Assembly: GCA_020152595.1 (NCBI GenBank)
Contig: JAIGNY010000466.1
Coordinates: 825,001-889,000 of the forward strand
Direction of reading: 5' to 3'
Source of the DNA: Chiridota heheva
Taxonomy: Eukaryota; Echinodermata; Holothuroidea; Apodida; Chiridotidae
DNA: 64,000 nucleotides
The first letter of the stretch is position 1. Every line of letters begins with the position of its first letter. A program made the translations under genes and the position numbers. The notes beneath the pieces were generated by a model. The model ran no database searches. It saw only the letters and a list, made by a program, of their open reading frames with translations, and was not told the DNA's origin. This document shows positions 9,401-64,000 of this stretch, piece after piece.

Positions 9401-10787
9401 TATCCCTTTTGCTAAAAACTCTTAAATATCCGGAGAAGTACTATAAATGAATCAAAGCTTGTGGCAAGCCTTGCGAACATCTAAATGTCAATGCGCGATT
9501 GCGGATTTGAGATTTTTGCCCTCACCTAGTTACCACATTGCCTATGGTGGGTGTGGCTTATTTTGTCACTTGGTGACGTTAATTGTTCTTTAGCTTCAAA
9601 AAAATGATGTATATACAGGGTATTTATATCTATCACAGTGGGTCTTTGTCCCTATGGGGAATTAGATATTCAGGCCCCATGAAAACTATTTTATTCTTTA
9701 TTGCTCATGGGCCCCAAAATCTTTATTTTGTTCAAGGCTCATGTACATAGTGAGATTTAGAAGAAGAAAAATAAATTAACTTGTTATCTGACAAATTATG
9801 ATAGGTCGGAACTGATGCTCTGCATGGATTGCAATAGTAAGTGGAACCGGAAGGTTACCATGAGAACCCACAATGACGTCAGTATAAAAGAAACAACAAT
9901 TGCCTTTAGTTAGTATCGAGTTCAGTGTCCTCATTTGCACCATGACATGATACAATTTGTAACTCATAAAAAATGTACAAAATGGTTTTGTGATGAGAAA
10001 TTCATCTCATGTTCCAAAAGCACCCCTGCAGTGCATTGATACACCTTTCATGCCTCTCTTGTTAATACCAGTCACGGTAATCATTGGGGGTGTGTTATTT
10101 ATGTCTTCTGTTGTTGTAACATGGGAGATCCGCTTTCCTCAGAAATCAATATAAAATTGACTCCTGTTATAGGTGGGAGAATAGAAGAATAAATTTGTGG
10201 AAAGGAAAGTAAGCCAGGCGGTGCAGTTCAGAATCAAAAGTTCTGCAAACTTTGTCTTGTATGAAATTTGGGAGGCACGATACCAAGGGGTCACTGACCG
10301 TAGATTTAATGGCGAGAAAAAATGCTTTGAGTCACTTTAATTTAAAAAATTATATTTGATATTTTTGTTCCTTTACATCTTACGGTTCTGACAATTTTAT
10401 AGATATGCTCTCAATAACCCTTCGAGGCTTGACAATGAATAAACAAAATAATACAATTCACAAATAAAAAAACCTATCCCTTTTAACAAGAAATAATATA
10501 GTTCTACAAAGAGGAGAAAAAATGGCATCTTTAAATAATATCAAGATAGCTACTTTTTATTTTGACCTTTTTTTTCTTTCATTGTTACAGCAATATACTT
10601 TTGGCTCTGTAAAGTCAGAACCTGTACATTATAAACCTGATTTGTATTTATTCCATATCAGATTTTATTAAGATTTTTGTTAAGATTTTGTTGTACTCCG
10701 GCCTGGTATATATTTAGGTAATTGCCAACTCAATTTTGTGATTTATGTGATTAATCGGCTGGTTGTTGGCTTTCTGATGATCTTGGA
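3471..10787. other. AT-rich intron or intergenic stretch
   Basis: No convincing exon. AGAAGTGGGCTAAATTTG at 3900 also occurs near 169, a dispersed repeat remnant. The G-rich part ending CGGCTCCGCTACCCCTG (about 4790-4957) resembles one end of a hAT-type MITE. The frame at 6931-7359 is AT-driven and hydrophobic at random. Confidence 0.55.
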
Positions 10788-11299
10788 TATATCAGCTCCA
10801 TGGATGTGTCAGCTCCGTGGATGTGTCAGCTCCGTGGATGTGTCAGCTCCGTGGATGTGTCAGCTCCGTGGATGTGTCAGCTCCGTGGATATGTCAGCTC
10901 CATGGATATGTCAGCTCCATGGATATGTCAGCTCCATTGATATGTCAGCTCCATTGATATGTCAGCTCCATGGATATGTCAGCTCCATGAATATGTCAGC
11001 TCCATGGGTATGTCAGCTCCATGGATATGTCAGCTCCATGGATATGTCAGCTCCATGGATATGTCAGCTCCATGGATATGTCAGCTCCATGAATATGTCA
11101 GCTCCATGGGTATGTCAGCTCCATGGGTATGTCAGCTCCATGGATATGTCAGCTCCATGGATATGTCAGCTCCATGGATATGTCAGCTCCATGGATATGT
11201 CAGCTCCATGGATATGTCAGCTCCATGGATATGTCAGCTCCATGGATATGTCAGCTCCATGGATATGTCAGCTCCATGGATATGTCAGCTCCATGGATA
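10788..11299 (+). repeat. 17-bp minisatellite, ~30 units
   Basis: Unit TATGTCAGCTCCATGGA, with GTGTCAGCTCCGTGGAT variants in the first units. As 17 is not a multiple of 3 and the unit lacks stops in all + frames, every + frame is open across the array and reads a 17-residue cycle. This is not a gene. Confidence 0.96.
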
Positions 11300-28146: not shown

Positions 28147-28791
28147 CCCTTATGGGGAATAACTGGTGCCATTGTAAATAATGAAGCTGTTTGGCGGTTG
28201 TCTAATCTTTATTCGTTGATGGTGTAATTGATTTTGAACTGTGCCATTTGACTTTTAAAAAGCAATTCAGTAGATTGGTTTCATGCCTTTAGGCAGTCTA
28301 ATCTTTTGTATAGCTCATCCAAAAGCTTATAGCTTTTTCAAAAGGGAATCATGGTGATTATTGTTTAACACTCAGAGATGCATTCATTTACCAGCTTTCA
28401 GGTGGACTTGTTATTCCAAGATTAAATACAGTCATCTCCTCTTCTCTTGGTGCAAGAATTTTAAGTTGTTTATTGCAAGAGGTACTTCATAAAGATGACT
28501 TTCGTGAGATGACTTTCGTGAGATTGTGGTCATAGTGAAACCGTACAATTTTATTCTATTGCCATTCTGTGATCGATAAAAGATCAATTGATGCATTAAA
28601 CCTGGCATACAAATTTGAAGGAAAAAAAGATACAAGCGGTGAAAAGGCATGGGGAAAAAGTAATGATCTGTTTGTAATGATGATAATAGTTTTAAATCAA
28701 CTTTATCCACATAAAGTGGCCACTGTTCCAATTTGAATAGGATTATTATTGCAGTTGGTTTTTTATGAGAGGGTGAATAGGACCAGTCACT

Positions 28792-33417: not shown

Positions 33418-33733
33418 TGCACTTGTTAGTTGTGTGACTCACCCCTACTACCCCGGCAATGTCAGCCAAAGGTGAGCCATTGACTTATGAAAAAGTGGCT
33501 CACATGTGCGTCATTGTACTAAATTGTCAGTCACGAGAGTGACTCTGGGGTGGGGTAATTTACTTCAGACCCATTGACTTTGTACAGAGGTGATTGATTT
33601 GGGTAAGTCACCCCCAAAAAAAAAAAAATGTTAGTCACCTAAGTGACTGAGGGGTGCGTCAATGTACATGCTTTGTCCACCCACTTTAATGCAATGACTC
33701 ACCTTGTCCTGGGGTACACAATTGACAAGTACA
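33418..33733 (+). mobile_element. MITE family A, copy 3, next to candidate exon
   Basis: A ~316-bp copy starting TGCACTTGTTAGTTGTGTGA and ending CACAATTGACAAGTACA. It lies only 43 bp after the donor of the candidate exon at 33172-33374. Same internal palindromes as copy 2, same orientation. Confidence 0.88.
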
Positions 33734-33784
33734 TTACTTTTGTAGTTACTATGTGTTTTGATTAAAGGGTTGTGTTTGTTTGCT

Positions 33785-34066
33785 TGTTTGGAAAACAATT
33801 CTTCCTCCAACATCATCATCTTCCTCCGCAACAACAACCTCTTCCACCACATTTAACTCCCCCCTCCCCTCCCTTTCTATACCTAACCTTACATACCCCT
33901 TTCTTTTCACCAATTTTTTGTTTTCCTCTTTTGCTTTTCCCCCCTTAACTCCCTTACAAACCTTATTTCTCCTCACTATCCTAACTCTTACTCCGTACTT
34001 TATTAACACCCTCTTGGCACATTTGACTCTGACTGGTTGGTGCCATTAAACATCAACAAACCAAAC
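33785..34066 (+). mobile_element. Possible retroposon 3' end, pyrimidine-rich
   Basis: A C/T-rich stretch (33800-34000) is followed by GGTTGGTGCCATTAAACATC and AACAAACCAAACC, a diverged form of the GTGGTGCCGTTAAAC tail seen at 19619 and 21985. Opposed open frames here (33749-34049) follow from the skewed composition and are not genes. Confidence 0.45.
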
Positions 34067-37987: not shown

Positions 37988-38320
37988 TGCACTTGTCAGT
38001 TGTATGACTCATGCCTACTTTCCCCTGGCAATGTCAGTCAAAGGGGAGTCATTCACATATGAAACAGTGACTCACATATGTGTCATTACACCAAATTTGT
38101 CAGTCACCAGAGTGACTCTGGGGTGAGTCAATTTACTTCAGGCCCATTGACTTTGTACAGAGGTGAGTAATTTTGGGTATTGCACAAGAAATGTCAGTCA
38201 CCCAAGTGACTGAGGGGTGCGTCAATGTACATGTTTTGACCGCTCTCCTTGGTGCAATGACTCCCCTTGTCCGGGGGTGTAGGGATGGGGGGGGGGTGAG
38301 TTACACACTTTATAAGTGCA
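37988..38320 (+). mobile_element. MITE family A, copy 4
   Basis: A ~333-bp copy starting TGCACTTGTCAGTTGTATGA and ending TTATAAGTGCA. TTA on both sides is a possible 3-bp target duplication, not seen cleanly in the other copies. An added G run (38286-38296) accounts for the extra length. Confidence 0.88.
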
Positions 38321-38946
38321 TTACATTCAGTGAATTCTGCATGGGCGATAAATGTTCCAGCAAGAAATTGTTTTGTCATTGAATTAAATGTAGAGCTTAT
38401 TATTGAACAGGCAGTGGGGCACTTCCTTGTTTATTGCCATAGCAACATACTGACAATGCTCTCTGGGTATTATATTTTTCTATTGTCCCTACCAAGGTAA
38501 TATAATTCAATGTACTGGTATAATTCTTGAACAAAGTTCACAACCACATTTACAGTTATTTGCAAACTGATAGATAACATTTAGAAGGATATCAAAAGAT
38601 TGATTTTGGCATATCTTTGCCTGAAGGTTATGGGGTTTTCTTTGCAGTTTTATTTCTGTAGAAGTTTTGTACGTTTATAATAAAAAGGCCTTTCATATTT
38701 ACACACAGTAGCTTCAAACTTTTAACTTTTCACCTTGTTTACTTTTGCCATAAAAGATGTGAGTGACAACTTCGTCACATGATTACATTCTGGATTTAAA
38801 ACTTTGATAAAGACTTGACTTTTGTCAAATAAGTCGGGAACCAGAGTTTGGAGGAAGTATTTTATTCACAAGAAGAGGAGCGATAGGACTTCTGCCATTT
38901 TTGCTCTGGATGATAATTAAACATTGATTTTCCTTTCCTTATTCAG

Positions 38947-39175
38947 GCGCACGTGGTGGCAGCATTTGAACAGAGCCTTTCTGGTATGACCAATCGTCTT
39001 CAACAGCTTACATCAAGCACCGAACAGAAGGACAGCGAACTCCAGGACCTCCGAGAGAAAATAGAGCAGTTGAAAGTGGCCCACAGTGATGGTAGGAATG
39101 GCACACTGCATAGGAACGGATCAGTGGACGGTTTGATAAGAAAACATTCTCTGGGGAACATAGTTAAAGATACAG
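38947..39175 (+). CDS. NAV: NAV exon: first coiled coil (residues 1-76)
   Basis: The exon starts after TATTCAG and reads AHVVAAFEQSLSGMTNRL, almost the same as the vertebrate NAV segment AHVVAAFEQSL. The first ~47 residues form a charged helix with heptad-like Leu spacing (DLREKIEQLK), a predicted coiled coil likely used for dimerisation. The last ~30 residues are polar and basic, with little recalled similarity. The exon begins in phase 0 and ends in phase 1 at ACAG|GTAAGA, so a Gly codon is split with the next exon. Failure to splice would append 13 residues and a stop at 39220. The upstream vertebrate coiled-coil segment (QIRKLRRELESSQEKV-like) was not found in the preceding intron. Confidence 0.96.
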
Positions 39176-39388
39176 GTAAGATTTTAGAGTACGAAAAGTA
39201 TTTGATCGAGAAGTTTATCTAGTGTGTGATGTTTTCCTTCCTATTGTGTGGATTATGTTGCAATGTCCTGATCTAAATTTGGACTTCTTATTGGATGGGT
39301 AGGAGTGTAAAGGCATATGGGTGTTGCCATGGTTGGGAAAGAGGGTGGAGGGGGGGGAGGGTCGACTGGTTTGTTTGACAACAGCTCC

Positions 39389-42247: not shown

Positions 42248-42384
42248 GTGAAGCCAGAATCAGTCGCCAAACCTCCTGCGAGTCTATGTCAAGCTTGGCA
42301 AGCATGACTAGTATGTCAAGCGCTGGATCGGCAATGACAGATACAGAAGGACTTGACTCAAACAAAAAGAAGAAGAAGAATTGG
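42248..42384 (+). CDS. NAV: NAV exon: Ser-rich linker ending in a Lys cluster (residues 77-122)
   Basis: Acceptor TTTTTTTCTCCAG; donor TTGG|GTAGGT. The frame, entered with 2 nt, gives GEARISRQTSCESMSSLASM and ends in KKKKKNW. The vertebrate counterpart is RIRRQHSSDSVSSINS followed by KKKKRKNW, so both the Arg-X-X-Arg-Gln-x-Ser start and the terminal basic-Trp cluster are kept. In the family this disordered Ser/Thr-rich part is a phosphorylation and cytoskeleton-binding region; that role is inferred here. It ends in phase 0, matching the next exon 7.8 kb away. An A+G-rich purine run at the 3' end could act as an exonic enhancer, but that is speculation. Confidence 0.95.
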
Positions 42385-43293
42385 GTAGGTGCTTTAAGAA
42401 TCACAAAAAAAAAGGGTTTTTATCCTGTACGTTCATACTAATTAAGCCATAGACAGGGGTGTAAATAATGTGGGATGTAGAGGGGGGTTAACCCCCTCCC
42501 CCCTATTAAGACTGCAGTAAAATTTAAGATTAGTAGGTAAATCTGGTAACAAGTCGGTAAAAATAACAAATTTGATTATTAACATTTTTAAAGGGAGGCA
42601 TTTTTTAATTTTATTTTGTTAAATGGGATTGGTCAATCTTATACCTCCCCCCCCCCCCCCTATCCTTTCCAGTCAAAATGGTCACTAACACGACTGACCA
42701 AGCAGAAGGCAAAGAAATAAAACACATGGAAGTGTTATTGCCTAGGATTCAAACTGCAGTCTTAGATATGAGTAACGCGAAGAACAACCAGGAGGTATGG
42801 TGGCATTAATTAGTTTCCTTCTTGAAACATTTGCTGGTCAAATGAACCTTAGATTCAAAGAATGATACATTATTCTAACAAGATCAATGAGTGCATATCA
42901 GGAAGTAAAATGAGTTATGATGTGGCATAAAGAATTCTTGAATTTTTGTGTTCAGTGGTCACTTTACAAAAATGAAGGCTTGAAAAATATCAGAATTCTG
43001 TGATAGTATTGCAAGCAAGTGTAAGTCACGTTTTGAATTTGGGTTATAAAATCATTCAGTTTTCTGTTATGTGAATTTCATAACTGATTTTATTGAAATG
43101 AAAATAAATTTGTTTGTTAAAACTGTTAGTTGATGTCAAGAAAATGTAGGGATTGTTAAGACCTGTGACTCTGCATTTTATATCAGTAGGATGAATTGAA
43201 TTTACAAGGCTATAAATATATTCTTGCGATATTCAGTGTGGGAAATTAACTTCAAAGGGCCTTTGTTGTATTAGAACAACTGTTATAAAATTC

Positions 43294-43750
43294 ACTAAAG
43301 GTTTAGTTTAGGTGTCAAGCATGTCCATTTTATATGAAAGAGGACTTCAAAAGAAACAAAGTGATAAAGAAAGCATTCAAAAATCGTATTTCATTGCGGA
43401 GATATTCAAGTTTAAAGCTCTTGTCTTATCTGTGTAGAAATGACTGGTGTAGTAATTCTACTATGGAAAGTTGGCATCTTCATTCTCAACAATAGTTTAT
43501 GTATTTTAAATAAAGTTTATTTAATGTTTTCACTATTTAAATTATTTTTCCTTTACCTTTCTTCAGGTGATATAGTATCAATACCCTTCCTAGATTCAGT
43601 TTTATTACTTTTCTGACATATTCCATGGTTTTTAAGCCACAAAATCGCAAGACAAATTATGATAGAATATATCAAGACTGCGGAATCCGTGGCTATGACA
43701 TCACAACTAGTCTGATTTATTCGTTTCTACACAAATGATACCAAACTTTT
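43294..43750 (+). mobile_element. MITE family B, partial copy in NAV intron
   Basis: Starts near ACTAAAGGTTTAGTTTAGG and carries GAGGACTTCAAAAGAAACAA, then CTGTGTAGAAATGACTGGTG, and ends near TTTCTACACAAATGATACCA. The right end with TTAATCCTTT is absent. It lies in the 7.8-kb NAV intron. Confidence 0.75.
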
Positions 43751-46067
43751 TATGTCAAGATTTATAAATCCACGTAATATTTGACATATATATATGTGCT
43801 GTAATACCTCCTTTTTTGGAAGTTTTTTATGTTTTATTATATATATATTTTTCAAAAATGTTCATGTATGCTTGCTGCATTGTATACCTTAAAAATTTCT
43901 TGCTCTAAACCAAAAAACTTATTGTCTGTTTTGAGCATGAAATGATCTGAATTCGTAAAAAAGCTTCATTTCAATGGACTAATGCAGCAATCAAATAGCA
44001 TCTTCACATACCCCCTCCCCACTTCCCCCCAAAGCGTTCAGTTTTTTCTCACCTTTTTCATTTTTTTTTTTTTTTTTTTTTTTAGGTCAAGATTTACCCA
44101 CCTGCATTAATTTTTTGGCAAAGATTTACCTGCCTTAAAAAAATGTAGGTGAAGATTCACCATTAAAAAAAACATGTTTTTTCGTAACCTTTTTTTATAG
44201 CGCATGTACTTAAAAGAGGCCACCCTTTTGTTCTATTGTATTGTACCACAATTTTATTATTCACTTTTATCTTCTTGTATGATACATGTTTGCATTATAG
44301 AAATTGATGACAGCAATAAAGTGTAGCCAGAGCAAATCTTTCCTTATCTTTGAACTGCAACATTCATCCCACAATACTCCCTACATATGACAAACATTTA
44401 CAACAGTGATCAGTTTCTTTTGCAATTTTAAACATTTTATCAAATTAAATTTTCTCCCTTGTAGGCCTTTAACTTTTTTTTTTTTTTTTTTTTTATGGAA
44501 AAACATGCGTTTATGCATTTAAAACAAATTGCATAGGTAGGCCCTAAAAATATTTCACATTGTTTTCGTTGTGAAGACATAATTCAACCTGAAAATCAGT
44601 ACATTTACATGCTCTTAGCGAACCGCGAATGACCACACAGTGACAACAAATTAGTATTTCCACCAATTGAAACGCATAAATAATTATTGACATAATTTGA
44701 GTGCAAATTAGCCAGTTCTTTGAGCGCATGATGTAGGGACATAAATACGGGGGGTGGGGTGATACATCCCCCGCCCCCCACTTTCAGTAAAGCTGTTGCC
44801 AAAATTGAAGACCTGTCAGTAGTAAATCAAGGTCCGCTTCAGTAAAACTTCCATCACAACTTTATCAAACGGATTGTAAATTGAAATATTATGGCACACG
44901 TTCTGCGATTTTGAACCGATGACCTTTTTTTGTCGGTAGGGTCCAACTCTTTTCTTTGTAAATTTGTCATTTTACACCCCCTTCCTCCTTCTCCTTTTCC
45001 TCCCTAATTAAAAGGGTTTACTGATGCCACTGGCATGATGGCACCACTGTGTGTTATGATAATGGACATCAGGGTACGTGGTCCAACTGATCTTCCATGA
45101 AAAGCTATTTATGCAAGGTACAATAGGTACGTGCTAGCACAGGGAGGATGAAACGTCTTCAACCTGTCAATACGTGAAGGAAAAATAGGAGGAAATTATC
45201 ATTTTTCAGTTCAATACTGATTCGATGTTAATGATTTGGATTTGACACATTTCCATAGTTTAAATTAAAGAATTTCAACAAGGATTCACCCACCTGCAAT
45301 AGTTTTTAGGCAAAGATTAACCTGAATTCGTTCAAGATGCACACCACCCAAAATATCTTTCATTCAAGATTCACACCACCCAAAAATATTTTTGATCAAG
45401 ATTCACCCAACCTTTCATTTTATGACCTGAGGATTCGACATTGTAACGACGCCAAATCTTGAACGTGCCTTGAGAGGTGGTCTGTGAAAATGCTGTTTAA
45501 GCGCTGCATAAAAGAAACGAAAACTTTATTGTGCTTCATGCTTGAAAATTTCTACTTCACAAAATGTTTTGTTGTACTGTTGACCGCTAGAATAGCATGC
45601 TCGATCATTTTCAGAGGTCATTTCCATTTTCAAAAGACTTTCTGACTATTTGTTGTTTTCCATTTTCTTTGCGGGAATGCATTTAATTCAGATGGCTTCA
45701 AGTGAAAAGGTAAAGATATGATTTTCTGCATCTTGGTTGCGTGCCTCCTAGTCCTCATGTTCTTAGATTGGTTGTTTCATTTTGAGAGTGAATTGATTTT
45801 CTCCGACATTAATCCCTTTTGTGTTTACTGTAAGATGATTTGTTTGTACCGGACCTACCAGTGTGTATTCATAACATTGTATTTTTCCTGTAGTTATTTA
45901 TTTGAATTATAAGTACTGTAATGAAGATTAATGATTAAGTTAGTGTGTGTATATATCTAACCATTTTTCTTTGAATTGACTTTCAAATATTTTTTTACCC
46001 CTCTTGTGTTATTTTCCTTTTTTGTGAAGTACATTTTCTTAGCTTTAGTTCCTTTTGGTAGACATAG
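43751..46067. other. NAV intron, homopolymer-rich
   Basis: T runs at 44062-44083 and 44469-44494. Motifs AAGATTCACC and CACCYACCTGCA recur at 44090-44165 and 45280-45420, a small diverged repeat. No exon. Confidence 0.55.
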
Positions 46068-46075
46068 TGGATGGT

Positions 46076-46226
46076 CAGTGGCGCAACAATAAGGTGGGTA
46101 AACCCCACTGGTCCTGAGCAAAAATGCAGATTTGGGGGCATTGAGCAATGACAATGCGATATGTTTATTAAAGGGCCCAACCCTCTATATTCTCCACGGG
46201 TCCCCAGAACATGAGTTACGCCACTG
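46076..46226. mobile_element. hAT-like MITE with 8-bp target duplication
   Basis: A 151-bp element with inverted ends CAGTGGCGCAAC and GTTACGCCACTG (one mismatch in 12). It is flanked on both sides by TGGATGGT (46068-46075 and 46227-46234), an exact 8-bp target site duplication. Length of duplication and CAG...CTG ends fit the hAT superfamily. Confidence 0.88.
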
Positions 46227-46616
46227 TGGATGGTGTTTGCATGAACTTGTTCTGTTAAATTTGGCAAAACATTGATCTAACAAATCAAAACTGAGCTGTA
46301 TTAAGCATGTTCAAGGTGCTTTAGTCTCATTTTTACACCCCTTAGCCCGGGGAGACAGTGACAGAACCAAGAGGACATCTAGTTCCCAATATATTGATGG
46401 AAATACTTTTTGTCAGGGATCTATAGCAAGAGTATTAAACCTGACTAACAGTTAATTTGCATTTTACCCCCTATCTTCAGTGCAAATTTTGGCACAATCC
46501 AGATTCAAGTGAAAATAAAGGACTAAAAAATGATATGAAATTTTGGCACAACCTAGATTCAGTAAAAAAAAAAAGACTGAAAAATAATATGAAAAAATTC
46601 CTCTAGGCATTTAGAA

Positions 46617-46717
46617 CTTAATCTACCAGCACTATTTTAAATTAAGCCTGGCAGGCGGAGTCAAAGACGGGCACCCGAAATGGCGATAATATCGCCGCAT
46701 GGTAGAGTAAGGGTTAA
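46617..46717 (+). mobile_element. MITE family D (piggyBac-like), copy 1
   Basis: A ~100-bp GC-richer element with core GGCAGGCGGAGTCAAAGACG and GGCGATAATATCGCC. The right end is GGTAGAGTAAGGGTTAA; the left end CTTAATCTACCAGC is eroded. Confidence 0.85.
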
Positions 46718-46852
46718 GCACAGGCTGATTATTGAAGGGTCCTCTGTCTTCTGAGCAGCAAAGTTGGGCTCATTCCACTTCAGTGACCTGGTGGTCGCCC
46801 ATCGGGACCATGCTGCATATATTTTTGAGTTGGCACACTTGTCGCGGGTTGA

Positions 46853-46961
46853 TTAACCCTTACTCTACCAGCACTGTATTGAAAATGCGCCTGGCAGGCG
46901 GAGTCAAAGACGGGGAACTCGAAACGGCGATAATATTGCCTTGTGGTAGAGCAAAGGTTAA
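46853..46961 (+). mobile_element. MITE family D (piggyBac-like), copy 2
   Basis: A 109-bp copy starting TTAACCCTTACTCTACCAGC and ending GGTAGAGCAAAGGTTAA. TTAA target duplications with CCCTT-type inverted ends are typical of piggyBac-derived MITEs. It sits 135 bp from copy 1 in the same orientation. Confidence 0.88.
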
Positions 46962-47275
46962 AGAATGTATCTTAAATTCTTGAAAAAAGCTGCTATTGCA
47001 TGAACTTGAAGCATATTTTAAGTGTTCACTAAAAAAAAGGTGGGCACCACCTTCTTCTGCTAGATGCACTGCACCGCATGCCACCACTGTCCCCAGAGGG
47101 GCACTTCATGCTAAAAGTGGTAGGGGTGTCCAATCCACCAACCAAAAAACATACACGCAGTATGACAGATTTTTAGACAACTGCAGTATGAATTGATATA
47201 ATTTTGATACCCGTAGTATGAAAGAAGTCCATTTTAATATCTACAGTATGAGCATTCACAGGTTGCATATATTAT

Positions 47276-47479
47276 ACATCTGTCGTGTTTGATATGCCGC
47301 GCACACATCTGACGTGTTTGATATGCCGCGCACACATCTGACGTGTTTGATATGCCACGCACACATCTAACGTGTTTGATATGCCGCGCACACATCTGAC
47401 GTGTTTAATGCAACGCACACATCTGACGTGTTTGATATGCCGCGCACACATCTGACGTGTTTAATATGCCGCGCACATT
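47276..47479 (+). repeat. 29-bp CG-containing minisatellite, 7 units
   Basis: Unit GCGCACACATCTGACGTGTT followed by TGATATGCC. It is richer in CpG than anything around it. Confidence 0.93.
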
Positions 47480-50158
47480 GTTACTATTTGCTGTCCGTAG
47501 ACTTAGTCTGTGTGTATTCTCTAAAGTGGAGGCTACCCCCTTGGGAGTTATGGTCATCACAGGTTTATCTAACCTCTGTAATATTTTATGAGCCATTTAT
47601 CAAAGGGTTTAGCATTTACATAAGATACAATGTACACAACTTTAAGCATACTCAAATATACATACATTTTCTTCAAACTTTAGATGTAAAAGAGGGTTTG
47701 AGATAATAATATTCATCCCTCCAACTAATGAGTATTTTGAGTAGACCAATTAACATCTGTTTCTGTTTCACAGATATGAACAACAAATTGCATGACAATA
47801 TCAACATTATATGTTAATTGTGGTTTATATTTGGATATAGTTTCTTCATAGCCAAGTCTTGATTTCTGGCAAAGGACTTTGGTTCCTTAGGTTAAAAGAT
47901 GGACACAATGTTAAAAATAAATAATCTATGCATTTTACTATCAGATGTAAGGAGAAGATATTTATTTAGGCCCTTCATGTTGTATTGAATTTTTAGAGTG
48001 TAATTCCACCTCCCACATCTCCTTTTCCCATAGAGATGCTGAATTTGTTTTTTTTTTTTTTATTATAGATTTTTGTTCTTCGACAATGTACTTCCTTGCT
48101 GCTGTACAATCCTCTTTGTTTTTTTACAACCTTTTTGATTTTCTTCACTGAAACAAAGATATTACCTTCAGGTGCCACTGTCTGGTTTCCCAAATATCAA
48201 AATATGATCATATCCATGTATGTCTGTATACCTGGGGCATGCTTGCTATCTGTATGTATGATGAGTACCTCTGTGAATCATCATAGCCTAAAACTGATCA
48301 CAGTGACTGAAATGGTCCTACATTGAAGCTCATGTGACTATGCCAGGTGTTTGCTTTTGATTGTTTTCCATGTAACTGGTTATATTGGTCAAAGGGATAG
48401 AAAAATATTGAAAGAACTTTTTTTTTTATGTTATCACAAAATTCCTTCAGAATTGGTTGATTTTTGTGGTCACATATTAGAGATGTGCAATTGCCAGGCC
48501 TGATTAATTGGTTGATTTTTGTGTGTTGTGTCAAATCTGTCTTTAGATGTGTTTTTATGCGGATCATATTCAAAGTCCATAATGAAGCAAAATTGAACCA
48601 GAGTATCATAAACTTAATATGAAGTGAGTATATCTAGGGCTGTCAACACTTGCACATCCGTGTATTTTGATCAAATTAAAGTTCCTTAATTTGTCATAGA
48701 TGATTGGGTGTCTGTTTTAAATCGGGGAGGGGGGGGCATAACCAGCTAAGAGCAAGTGAAATGATTAAAGGGCTTGCTATTTATTTTCGTTGTATTTTGA
48801 TTTCCGATTTTTTTTTTTTTTTTTTTTTGTATTTTGGGAATGTTTGGATATTTCATTGACAATTTTCCTCGATTTTCGAAACAATTTTTTTCTGTCAAAC
48901 ATCGTTGAACTTTGAATCTGTTGGAAAATTCCTTGCACCAGTATGCTTTTTAACGAATTTAAAAGGTTTGTTCAGTATGTGTGATTTAATTAAATTATAG
49001 GGCTATTACAAATTGTTATGCACGTTTAAATTTTTGGTTACATTATTTTTTGGGGGGCAAAATAATTTTGGTGGCCCCCCCAAATACCCCCTGTGGCTAT
49101 GAGCGGGTCAAAAGTATTATATGTCTAAAAATGAATAGCACCTTCTAGATATGAGAACAAGATTTGCAGAGCCAGCTTGTTCCCCACCCAGATCCCACCA
49201 GTGCATGACTTTGATGTTTTAATGCCAAAATAGTTCACTGTCAAAAGTTGGTAGGAGGAAGATTATTATTATTAGTAGTCAGTAGTAGTAGTAGTAGTAT
49301 TGATATTATTATTATTAGTAGTTAGTATAAGTATTTTTTTTATATATATTTTTTTTAATTATTAAATATGTCACATTAAAACTCATTAGTCAATTCATAA
49401 ACTTTTATGGACAAAACCTATTTGGATAATATAACCCTGTTGAGCTGCAACATCATTGCCATCTAAATAGTACGCATTTAATGGAAGTCAACAAGTAGTC
49501 CCTGAAATTGGAGTAAGATATGTGTGTGGCTACAAAATTCAGAATTATTATTGGTAGTAGTAGGTCACATTTAGAGTTTGTGTCACATAGCTAATTTTAC
49601 TGTACAGGAATGCCTTGCAAGAAAGCCTCAACCCAAACAATACCATTCTTTTGAAGAGAAGCTTGTTTATAGGTGTCATGTATTGTGGTTTCTTTCAAGT
49701 TGGGTGTCAGAACCATGCACTGGAATGTTGTTTTGAAAGTCAAATCACCTAGGAAAATCTTGTTTTTCAACTTTGGTTTTGATTGCAGTAGTCGTACCTT
49801 TGTTTTCATTGATTGAAAAATAACACGAAAGGGGAAAAACATCAAATTTGTACAGGTACAGATTTGATCAAAGTCTTCTCCTTCCCATGGACAGAATTAA
49901 ACAGAACTTCGTAAGATGTTGACGACGAAAGAGGTACCTTGTTATTTTTTGTTTAGATTTTAAGATCCTTCCGAGACCTGCTGTACTAAGTTTCTATCAT
50001 GTTTTTCAAACTTTCTTTCAGTCACAGTTAAAAGTGGCATTGTGGAACAGTTTGAAAGTTAGTCTACAAAGTTTCTAGAATATTTCTTTCATTGATATTT
50101 GATTCCGCTTCTTTTGACATTAGGAGTCTCAAGAAAGTATCATTTCTTTTCTGTGCAG
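47480..50158. other. NAV intron, AT-rich with short tandem tracts
   Basis: T run at 48808-48828 and ATTATTATTAGTAGT tracts at 49264-49330. No gene or transposon end recognised. Confidence 0.55.
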
Positions 50159-50316
50159 ATAAGAAGCTCTTTCAGATCAGCATTTGGACGCAATAAGAAG
50201 AAGGCGAGCGGTACCACCACAGACACAGAGGATCTAGAATCAAGTATGACGTTTTCCAACGGCACAATTCACAGCCAAGGCCAGTCGCAGTTGAAACAGT
50301 CTGCCTCCACATCTGC
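50159..50316 (+). CDS. NAV: NAV exon: basic amphipathic segment and Ser/Gln linker (residues 123-174)
   Basis: Acceptor TTTTCTGTGCAG. The product begins IRSSFRSAFGRNKKK, matching vertebrate LRSSFKQAFGKKK, a conserved basic amphipathic stretch, followed by a Thr/Ser/Gln-rich linker with the acidic TDTEDLESS corresponding to SHSDIEEM. The exon must end at 50316 (TCTGC|GTACGT), because the next exon supplies one base to make GCT (Ala175); this leaves phase 2. The last bases and the donor are perfectly duplicated 46 bp downstream (see the repeat at 50302-50393). Use of the second donor would meet an in-frame TAA at 50336. Confidence 0.94.
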
Positions 50317-50393
50317 GTACGTATCCTGGTATTCATAAGTAGTCTTATGCCTCCACATCTGCGTACGTATCCTGGTATTCATAAGTAGTCTTA
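50302..50393 (+). repeat. Perfect 46-bp tandem duplication of exon end and splice donor
   Basis: Bases 50302-50347 are repeated exactly at 50348-50393. The unit holds the last 15 coding bases of the NAV exon and the donor GTACGT plus early intron. The second copy therefore offers an identical donor at 50363. Perfect identity points to a recent event or an assembly artefact. Confidence 0.95.
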
Positions 50394-50503
50394 TGGGATG
50401 GGGAGCTGGAAGTATCTCCTAACATTGAAAAATCCTTGAAATTTAGGATGATTAAATGAGTTTAGTCAAAATGCAATCTAGTGAGTGGTAGGTTGTTAAC
50501 TTT

Positions 50504-50870
50504 CTCTTTCAACATCTAATAAACAAATTCAGACAAAAAAATTACAATTATGAAAATAATTATCAGGGCAAAACTGCTTGTTATGGGTGGGGATCAACAC
50601 GCCTGTTAAGGATGTTGACTGTCTTTCAACATTTAATAAACAATAAGCAAACAATAGGGCTTAAATTTTACAAATAAGAAAACAATTATTCTGGCAAAAC
50701 TTTGTTATGGGTGGGGGATCAACTTGCCCCTAGGTTTGCTGGCTGTCTTTCAACATTTCATATAAAATCGGGAAATATTTTTACAGATATGAAAATAAGT
50801 ATTAGGACAAAACATTTATGGGTGGGGACAGGTCTGACAAACCTCCTTGTTGAAAGTTGTGCTCACTAGT
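50504..50870 (+). repeat. ~120-bp unit, three diverged copies
   Basis: Landmarks TCTTTCAACATTTAATAAAC or a variant (about 50505, 50624, 50747), GGCAAAAC and TTATGGGTGGGG recur at ~120-bp spacing, in the 635-bp NAV intron. Confidence 0.82.
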
Positions 50871-50951
50871 TTAAAAAAATCAGTGAAATTGTACTGATTA
50901 ATGTGTATTGAAAGTAAAATAAATATCTAGTCTTTTATTTTTCTGTTTTAG

Positions 50952-51102
50952 TTTGTATGATGCTGAGGAGAGTCTAGAGACAATCACAGACCTGAAACGA
51001 CAGTTGAGGGACAAAGAAGGCAAATTGACTGACATCAAGCTGGAAGCGTTAAGTTCACAACACCAGCTAGACCAGATGCAGGAGTGTATGAATAAAATGA
51101 AG
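50952..51102 (+). CDS. NAV: NAV exon: second coiled coil (residues 175-225)
   Basis: Acceptor TTTTCTGTTTTAG. After one carried base the product reads LYDAEESLETITDLKRQLRD and continues through KEGKLTDIKLEALSSQHQLDQM. Vertebrate NAV2 has LRNELRDKEMKLTDIRLEALSSAHQLDQL at this point, one of the best conserved non-ATPase segments. It is a strong coiled coil with heptad Leu, Ile and Met. It ends in phase 0 at ATGAAG|GTTGGT, an unusual donor with T at +3. The exon lies 635 bp after the previous one and shortly before a 470-bp TA microsatellite in the next intron. Confidence 0.96.
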
Positions 51103-51382
51103 GTTGGTGCATAAAAAGATAACTTTCAGTTTTTTTTTTTTTATTTCTGACCTCCACTTTTCAGAAATTCATAACATTATCAAGGTCCCTTGTACACTTT
51201 CCTCCACTTTTGGACATTGACGTCAAAAGTTATAGTTAGAACCCCCGACACGCAAGGCTGGCTATGCCACTGCACTCTGCTGAAAGGTGGATGTGTGCTT
51301 CTTGGGGTCTCTACAATAATACAAAACATTACTCCCACTCACAGGCGTAAACACTGCGGAGGTGTGGGCCCCTTCCAATATT

Positions 51383-52474: not shown

Positions 52475-52613
52475 ACGGAAATGATGCAATTAAAACAAGA
52501 GAATGAGAGGTTACAGAGGCAGGTGCAAACAAACAGGAAATCACTGGAGAACTCCTCCTTGAATTCACTCAACTCCAACGGTTCATCCAAGAGGCTAAGC
52601 AGAGATTCATTGG
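52475..52613 (+). CDS. NAV: NAV exon: end of coiled coil and Ser/Asn linker (residues 226-271)
   Basis: Acceptor TTTTTTTAG. The product begins TEMMQLKQENERLQRQVQ, corresponding to vertebrate SEIEKLKAENDRLK, and so completes the second coiled coil. It is followed by a linker rich in Ser, Asn and Leu (SSLNSLNSNGSSKR) and SRDSL. The donor is TTGG|GTGAGT, phase 1. The linker is poorly conserved in the family and probably disordered. Reading into the intron would hit a stop at 52667. Confidence 0.94.
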
Positions 52614-53997: not shown

Positions 53998-54071
53998 TGG
54001 ATATCTGGATGTGGCAATAATTGTTTTGATAATGGATATCTGGATGTGGCAATAATTGTTTTGATAATTGT
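53998..54071 (+). repeat. 36-bp perfect tandem duplication
   Basis: GGATATCTGGATGTGGCAAT through TTGTTTTGATAAT occurs twice in a row, in the intron before the exon at 54383. Confidence 0.9.
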
Positions 54072-61478: not shown

Positions 61479-61650
61479 GTTTCCAGCACAACAGCTGTGA
61501 TTCTTTAGTATTTGAAACGTTAGTTCCCAAACCTATACTACAGAGGTATATCTCGCTCCTCCTGGAGCACAAACGAATCATCTTGTGCGGCCCAAGTGGC
61601 ACGGGGAAGACATATCTTGCTCAGAAGCTGGCGGGACACATTGTACAAAG
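61479..61650 (+). CDS. NAV: NAV exon: start of AAA+ domain with Walker A (residues 410-466)
   Basis: Acceptor TTTTTTCCCACAG; ends CAAAG|GTACTG in phase 2. The product includes DSLVFETLVPKPILQRYISL, then the P-loop CGPSGTGKTYLAQKLAGH. Walker A is GPSGTGKT, residues 447-454, coded from 61589; the Lys453 and Thr454 pair that binds ATP phosphate and Mg is intact. Vertebrate NAV2 has SGPSGTGKTYLANRL in the same place. NAV ATPases belong to the AAA+ class, and the domain probably remodels or signals to cytoskeletal partners. Confidence 0.98.
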
Positions 61651-62909: not shown

Positions 62910-63083
62910 TGCCTTAGATTTGCCAACAGTAATCATCCTGGATAACCTCCACAATGCTGGTTCTCTAGGAGAAATCTTTACAGGGTTCCTTAGCTATAAG
63001 TACAACAAATGCCCCTACATCATCGGCACCATGAACCAGGCCACTTGCCAGTCCACCAACCTTCAGCTGCACCACAATTTCAG
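62910..63083 (+). CDS. NAV: NAV exon: Walker B and sensor 1 region (residues 504-561)
   Basis: Acceptor TTTCTTTGCAG, donor TTTCAG|GTAAAT, phase 2. The product includes LPTVIILDNLHNAGSLGEIF, then KYNKCPYIIGTMNQAT and LQLHHNF. The Walker B strand VIILDN has Asp515 but Asn516 where most AAA+ ATPases carry the catalytic Glu; recalled vertebrate NAV2 has the same LDN. Asn546 in GTMNQ fits sensor 1. This is the last exon in the window; the next should begin with the base completing Arg and a Trp-x-Leu-Cys-Ala-Asn-like sequence, and lies past 64000. Confidence 0.97.
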
Positions 63084-63365: not shown

Positions 63366-64000
63366 AATAATCCTACTTAGCAGATTCATTTCCATTATCA
63401 CCAGTAAATGTCTAAAAGATGTAAGAATCCTACTTAGCAGATTCATTTCCATTATCACCAGTAAATGTCTAAAAGATGTAAGAATCCTACTTAGCAGATT
63501 CATTTCCATTATCACCAGTAAATGTCTAAAAGATGTAAGAATCCTACTTAGCGGATTCATTTCCATTATCACCAGTGAATGTCCAAAAGATGTACAAATC
63601 CTTTTTAGCGAATTCAATTCCATTATCACCAGTAAATGTCTAAAAGATATACGAATCCTTTTTAGCGGATTCATTTCCATTATCACCAGTAAATGTCTAA
63701 AAGATGTAAGAATCCTACTAGGCGGATTCATTTCCATTATCACCAGTAAATGTCCAAAAGATGTATGAATCCTTCTTAGCGGATTCAATTCCATTATCAC
63801 CAGTAAATGTCTAAAAGATGTATGAATCCTACTTAGCGGATTCATTTCCATTATCACCAGTAAATGTCTAAAAGATGTACGAATCCTTCTTAGCGGATTC
63901 AATTTCATTATCACCAGTAAATGTCTAAAAGATGTACAAATCCTTCTTAGCGGATTCATTTCCATTATCACCAGTAAATGTCTAAAAGATGTACGAATCC
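63366..64000 (+). repeat. 57-bp minisatellite running off the window, ~11 units
   Basis: Unit contains CATTTCCATTATCACCAGTA, then AATGTCTAAAAGATGTA and GAATCCTACTTAGCGGATT. As 57 is 19 codons and stop-free in one frame on each strand, long opposed open frames arise (150 and 203 codons). It lies in the intron after the Walker B exon and ends beyond 64000. Confidence 0.95.

Follow-up and report, generated by a model that had tools for sequence, protein, structure and literature searches.

In the holothurian Chiridota heheva, the end of one exon of a NAV-like gene stands twice in the genome assembly together with its splice donor, and the question is what the second donor does there. A preliminary description offered a very recent mutation, a regulated unproductive-splicing switch, or an assembly error as possible answers. 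We analyzed the window, the whole stretch of 64,000 nucleotides taken from contig JAIGNY010000466.1, and conclude that the locus is probably an ordinary small tandem duplication over the NAV-like exon end and its donor, in which the upstream donor is expected to stay productive and which would not be a dedicated switch.

The duplicated exon end and the gene that carries it

The plus strand of the window carries a series of exons that resembles a neuron navigator gene (Table 1). Exon boundaries were placed by eye at AG and GT, and the exon list is partial. Since the name rests on a likeness to human NAV sequence and on a published order of domains, the label "NAV-like" is used throughout. In the available text of PMC9877351, the C-terminal AAA+ NTPase domain of neuron navigators (NAV/unc-53/sickie) is preceded by two coiled coils. 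Pfam domain analysis revealed weak matches to coiled-coil families, below cut-off, at 38917-39222 and 50923-51114, and AAA-type matches in the P-loop exon, all of them below the curated cut-offs among the matches listed. The PDB matches listed (60 of 356) are AAA and other P-loop proteins, e.g., midasin and dynein, and there is no navigator-named chain among these 60. A scan of viral_contigs with a pattern from exon 50952 gave 24 pattern matches, none of which was confirmed, and revealed no relative.

Direct comparison of the two 46-mers revealed that 50302-50347 and 50348-50393 are identical letter for letter, and TRF reports 50302-50395 as a repeat of period 46 with 2.0 copies and 100% matches. 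This bears out the perfect 46-bp duplication at 50302..50393 of the preliminary description, and the two GTACGT donors that it placed 46 bp apart were found. The sequence likewise supports its statement that a NAV exon end was copied along with the donor, with the gene name kept as NAV-like. The two copies are adjacent, and each carries the same donor, as expected of a tandem duplication of a donor. Chance similarity of the two 46-mers is ruled out by their length. The run of matches at an offset of 46 is 48 bases long, with no extension leftward, which leaves an uncertainty of 2 bp (TG) in the placement of the breakpoints.

Table 1. Features of the NAV-like gene and of the duplicated donor region (positions in the window)
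Feature	Position	Strand	Remark
NAV-like exon, middle part	38947-39175	+	AG/GT by eye
Upstream NAV-like exon (..RISRQTSCESMSS..NKKKKKNW)	42248..42384	+	phase 0 end; donor GTAGGT at 42385
NAV-like exon, 158 nt (IRSSFRSAFGRNKKK..QSASTSA)	50159..50316	+	productive end 50316; AG ends at 50158
Copy 1	50302..50347	+	15 nt of exon end and 31 nt of intron
Predicted stem, 5' arm (UGCGUACGUA)	50314..50323	+	pairs donor 1 with donor 2
Donor 1, TGC-GTACGT, in frame	50317..50322	+	U1 duplex -3.4 kcal/mol
Other GT in copy 1, CTG-GTATTC, frame kept, +12 nt	50329..50334	+	U1 duplex -4.2 kcal/mol; without G at +5
Inverted repeat CATAAG-TAGT-CTTATG	50334..50349	+	end of copy 1 inside 3' arm; recurs at 50380
TAA, in frame if a donor 3' of it is used	50336..50338	+	frame table
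Copy 2	50348..50393	+	intronic if donor 50317 is used
Predicted stem, 3' arm	50360..50369	+	RNA folding
Donor 2, identical to donor 1	50363..50368	+	204-nt exon with premature stop
Diverged three-copy tandem array, spacing 111-126 bp	50496..50827	+	in intron after duplication
Next NAV-like exon (LYDAEESLETITDLKRQLRDKEGKLTDIKLEALSSQHQLDQM..)	50952..51102	+	its first T completes codon
NAV-like exon, middle part	52475-52613	+	AG/GT by eye
P-loop exon (GPSGTGKT), NTPase part	61480-61650	+	AG/GT by eye
NAV-like exon, NTPase part	62910-63083	+	AG/GT by eye

Origin and age of the duplication

Two features at the breakpoints were considered and set aside. Breakpoint microhomology was rejected as proof of a mechanism because 2 bp is expected by chance in about 1 in 5 cases (hand estimate). 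The hairpin CATAAG-TAGT-CTTATG was rejected as the cause of a break because 295 comparable hairpins occur in the window, and any causal role for it in the break would be speculative.

The age of the duplication is only loosely bounded. The absence of differences over 46 bp (0 differences) places divergence below about 6.5% (95% bound), and this does not force the very recent mutation proposed earlier; judged from the sequence, the duplication may or may not be recent.

In order to place the duplication against its background, other tandem repeats of the window were compared with it. The TRF output for the window comprises 41 rows, and some of these are overlapping descriptions of one array. 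In a looser scan (units of 20-200, minimum identity 72%), which included arrays and microsatellites, the hits merged into 41 places with identities of 73-100%. An exact scan, carried out on the window for periods of 12-600, revealed three perfect two-copy duplications outside microsatellites and longer arrays: 14 bp at 28493, 35 bp at 53998, and 46 bp at 50302. The other two-copy duplications in the window have units of 14, 35, 36, and 47 bp, with identities of 100%, 100%, 94%, and 77-86%, respectively. Since tandem duplications are common in the window, it is not very surprising that one of them hit a splice junction.

These other duplications also bear on the possibility that the genome holds one copy and that the second was introduced by an overlap left unmerged, by gap closing, or by the joining of haplotypes. 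Perfect identity over 46 bp would be in keeping with such an artefact, and the 2-bp breakpoint homology could be chance. Against it, there is no N in the window, and the varied unit sizes and graded identities of the other duplications argue mildly against an artefact of fixed length; on the sequence, they appear to fit natural duplication better than assembly error. We regard an assembly artefact as fairly unlikely.

Further repeats were noted in the window. The three-copy array in the intron after the duplication carries TTATGGGTGGGG, and the sequence right after copy 2 (TTATGGGATGGGG) resembles that motif by eye. The perfect two-copy 35-bp duplication (53998-54068) lies away from the placed splice junctions. 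On the plus strand, 317-526 and 43307-43495 contain open stretches that are similar by eye (..MKGDFKRNKMLKKAFKNLNPLRRFSSL.. and ..MKEDFKRNKVIKKAFKNRISLRRYSSL..) and are probably copies of one dispersed repeat. On the minus strand, 33631-33852 and 38194-38430 end in the same terminal peptide (..MYIDAPLSHLGD) after a similar stretch (by eye), and probably represent another dispersed repeat family. TRF also identified a 57-bp satellite of about 11 copies that runs up to the window end (63369-64000) and, at 10784-11299, a minisatellite with a 17-bp unit in about 30 copies (96%); the latter has long open stretches in all three plus-strand frames.

Reading frame and choice of donor

Splicing from donor 50317 gives a 158-nt exon that is joined in frame to 50952 (..QSASTSA-LYDAEESLET..). 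As the preliminary description stated, the leftover bases at this donor join the T at 50952, which completes the codon, and use of the second donor includes the TAA at 50336, since the resulting 204-nt exon reads 50336-50338 in frame. Its further claim, that only the first donor keeps the frame, holds for the two GTACGT sites and fails for GTs generally. The frame is open at two of the 10 GT positions tested between 50317 and 50412, namely, 50317 and 50329, and the extension to 50329 adds 12 nt without a stop. Skipping of exon 50159-50316 also meets a stop. Exons 50952, 52475, 61480, and 62910 all lie 3' of the TAA at 50336, and the alternative site gives a premature stop 5' of later exon junctions, the arrangement looked for in decay-coupled splicing.

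This arrangement raises the possibility that the downstream donor is used on purpose and that its transcripts are sent to decay. With donor 50363, as with the four GTs tested after it, codon 60 of the exon is a stop, as such regulation would need. However, an out-of-frame duplication would give such a stop by accident, no positive sign of the previously suggested regulated switch was seen, and upstream use is predicted by exon definition in the available text of PMC9225289. Regulation of this kind is, in our judgment, highly improbable.

The strength of the donors was assessed by U1 duplex energy, which does not force the splice register and is a rough guide. On this measure, donor 50317 is the weakest of the seven scored in the gene, its copy uncounted (-3.4 versus -5.6 to -11.1 kcal/mol), and exon skipping is therefore a likely cost. 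Nearby GTs beat it slightly (50329 and 50375, -4.2; 50339 and 50385, -4.0; 50412, -3.7 kcal/mol).

The introns flanking exon 50159-50316 are 7,774 and 635 nt long, assuming no unseen exon in 42385-50158, and from these long introns we infer that the exon is recognized by exon definition. The available text of PMC9225289 describes five minigenes in which an exon between introns of 365 nt carries the CAG/guaagu donor twice, at a spacing of 52 nt; all five were spliced only from the upstream copy. After weakening of both donors, minigenes M and S still preferred the upstream one, whereas exon skipping was preferred in L and XL. The same text gives a human survey in which the downstream donor was preferred in ~60% of all alternative donor pairs taken without a strength filter and the upstream donor was preferred in 60% of pairs of near-equal strength. 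The exon studied here is like the minigenes of PMC9225289, as described in that part of the paper, in its identical donors, nearly the same spacing, and long flanking introns. Unlike it, the minigenes are engineered constructs in transfected cells, and their donors are CAG/guaagu or GAG/guguca, whereas the donor here is the near-palindrome TGC/guacgu.

Natural duplications of donors have also been described. Human SLC22A1 (OCT1) rs35854239 is an 8-bp duplication of the exon 7 donor; splicing was altered in 38-52% of minigene transcripts versus 0.3-0.6% altered transcript in liver, and homozygotes for the duplication had a median drop in protein of 35% (PMC8137991, available text). There, as here, the donor is duplicated at the exon-intron border, the original donor is productive, and the new donor leads to a longer transcript, a frameshift, and a premature stop. 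The two cases differ in that the OCT1 unit is 8 bp and the present one 46 bp, and in that OCT1 is a human polymorphism with expression data; in addition, a donor-donor stem goes unmentioned in the available text of PMC8137991, whereas a 10-bp stem is predicted here. For a SUN5 variant in acephalic spermatozoa syndrome, a duplicated donor that adds two nucleotides is one of two hypotheses of the authors (PMC7927044, available text). That hypothesis is like the present case in that a duplicated donor lengthens the mRNA and shifts the frame, and it differs in the two nucleotides added, versus a unit of 46 bp here. Both the minigene and the OCT1 precedents are human, and the expectation for the donors here is carried over from human systems. 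By analogy, these two precedents would agree with a leaky duplication more than with a switch.

The duplication was also considered as a first step of intron gain. An intron of the potato RdRp gene was made by tandem duplication over an intron-exon border (PMC4974935, available text), and the duplication here likewise crosses an exon-intron border. In potato, as described in that text, the duplicated segment covers the acceptor border and a new intron results; in contrast, the present duplication spans the donor border with no evident acceptor. Reading of the whole 46-bp unit revealed a donor but neither AGGT nor a usable acceptor (no pyrimidine-rich acceptor by eye), and intron gain by the AGGT model was rejected on these grounds. 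Moreover, the distance between the copies leaves no room for a new intron, and we give this route almost no credence. Copy 2 as a microexon was also rejected, as the space after donor 50317 is too short for an intron.

Predicted pairing of the donors and expected consequences of the duplication

The donor sequence UGCGUACGUA is near its own reverse complement (a quasi-palindrome), and two copies of it can therefore pair. RNA folding predicts a stem of 10 bp between donors 1 and 2, two of them G-U. The 141-nt fold has a predicted energy of -44.2 kcal/mol versus a shuffle mean of -34.3 (z, -2.99), with 0 of 200 shuffles as good; under a stricter control, in which the unit was shuffled and then duplicated, z was -2.4 and 8 of 500 folds were at least as good. 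The predicted mean unpaired probability of the donors is 0.02 with the duplication versus 0.34-0.43 in the single-copy comparison. Opening of the 9-nt donors is predicted to cost 11.5 and 10.1 kcal/mol versus 2.7 kcal/mol in the single copy at 37°C. The gap between duplicated and single copy is similar at 25 and 15°C, and over four flank lengths the cost is 9.3-11.6 kcal/mol duplicated versus 2.5-3.6 kcal/mol single copy.

To judge these values, 200 random GTR sites were duplicated in silico, after prior exclusion of those within 50200-50500 or close to long AT repeats. One of them gained at least 6.7 kcal/mol, and the largest gain was 7.15 versus 7.4 kcal/mol at the actual donor. Six other donors of the gene, duplicated in the same way, all gained less. 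The level of 9.84 kcal/mol was reached by 4 of 200 control sites when duplicated and by 4 of 200 already in single copy. Of the donors of the gene, 52614 and 42385 natively cost 9.9 and 8.8 kcal/mol to open, and both pair far better with U1 than does donor 50317.

Local folding gave a different picture. The values for donors 1 and 2 versus the single copy were 2.0e-2 and 1.8e-2 versus 3.2e-2 at W120/L80, 3.7e-4 and 2.1e-2 versus 2.1e-2 at W150/L100, and 5.2e-3 and 4.1e-2 versus 2.3e-2 at W80/L60. At W70/L40, where the stem cannot form, they were 0.12 and 0.14 versus 0.074. In this window-averaged folding, the predicted masking effect is small, one-sided, or reversed, which weakens the case for the stem.

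If the stem forms in the pre-mRNA, the two donors would be hidden from U1 and exon inclusion would be lowered; the locus would then act as an allele with partial loss of function or as a switch that depends on RNA structure. The predicted stem, the low unpaired probability, and an opening-energy gain that exceeds 200 of 200 controls and 6 of 6 other donors point in this direction. The shuffled-then-duplicated units that fold at least as well overall, the control sites and native donors that are closed to a similar degree, and the local folding point away from it, and folding predictions leave out helicases and proteins. We treat the donor-donor stem as a prediction, not a finding, and consider masking of this kind quite improbable. 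No published donor-donor stem made by duplication was found in a limited, blunt literature search of sources available in part. In its general form, the idea is that a self-complementary donor, once duplicated in tandem, automatically yields an RNA stem in which both copies are hidden. For donors of the GTACGT type, duplication would then entail an inherent penalty or provide a structural switch from the outset, and the NAV-like allele would exemplify this in nature, its exon inclusion being lowered or condition dependent. We give this idea a slender chance.

An ordinary small tandem duplication agrees with the identical units and their 2-bp breakpoint homology, with the reading frames that result from each donor and from skipping, with the flanking intron lengths, and with the varied other duplications of the window and the diverged array in the same intron. 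The minigenes and OCT1 (PMC9225289 and PMC8137991, available text) would serve it as precedents by analogy. Against it are the weak donor 50317 and the slightly better GTs nearby, as cryptic sites may compete. Given the skipping seen in the weakened L and XL minigenes (PMC9225289, same text), output could fall by more than a nearly neutral duplication would imply. An upstream choice would also be disfavored, by analogy, by the ~60% downstream preference in unfiltered human pairs (PMC9225289, same text) and by the substantial downstream use in OCT1 minigenes, though at 8-bp spacing (PMC8137991, available text).

In such an ordinary duplication, a small tandem event would have chanced to span the 3' end of the NAV-like exon and its donor. 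Exon definition would then favor the upstream, protein-making donor, and use of the downstream donor or skipping of the exon would yield premature-stop transcripts, which would be expected to be degraded. The effect would be nearly neutral or a mildly lower output, perhaps lowered further by the predicted donor-donor stem.

At present, the locus is simply a further case of a duplicated donor in an animal gene. Should the stem between the donors prove important, a simple rule would follow, namely, that the tolerance of a duplicated donor is set by its self-complementarity. The locus would be useful mainly as a natural setting in which to test the choice that the spliceosome makes between two identical donors about 50 nt apart.
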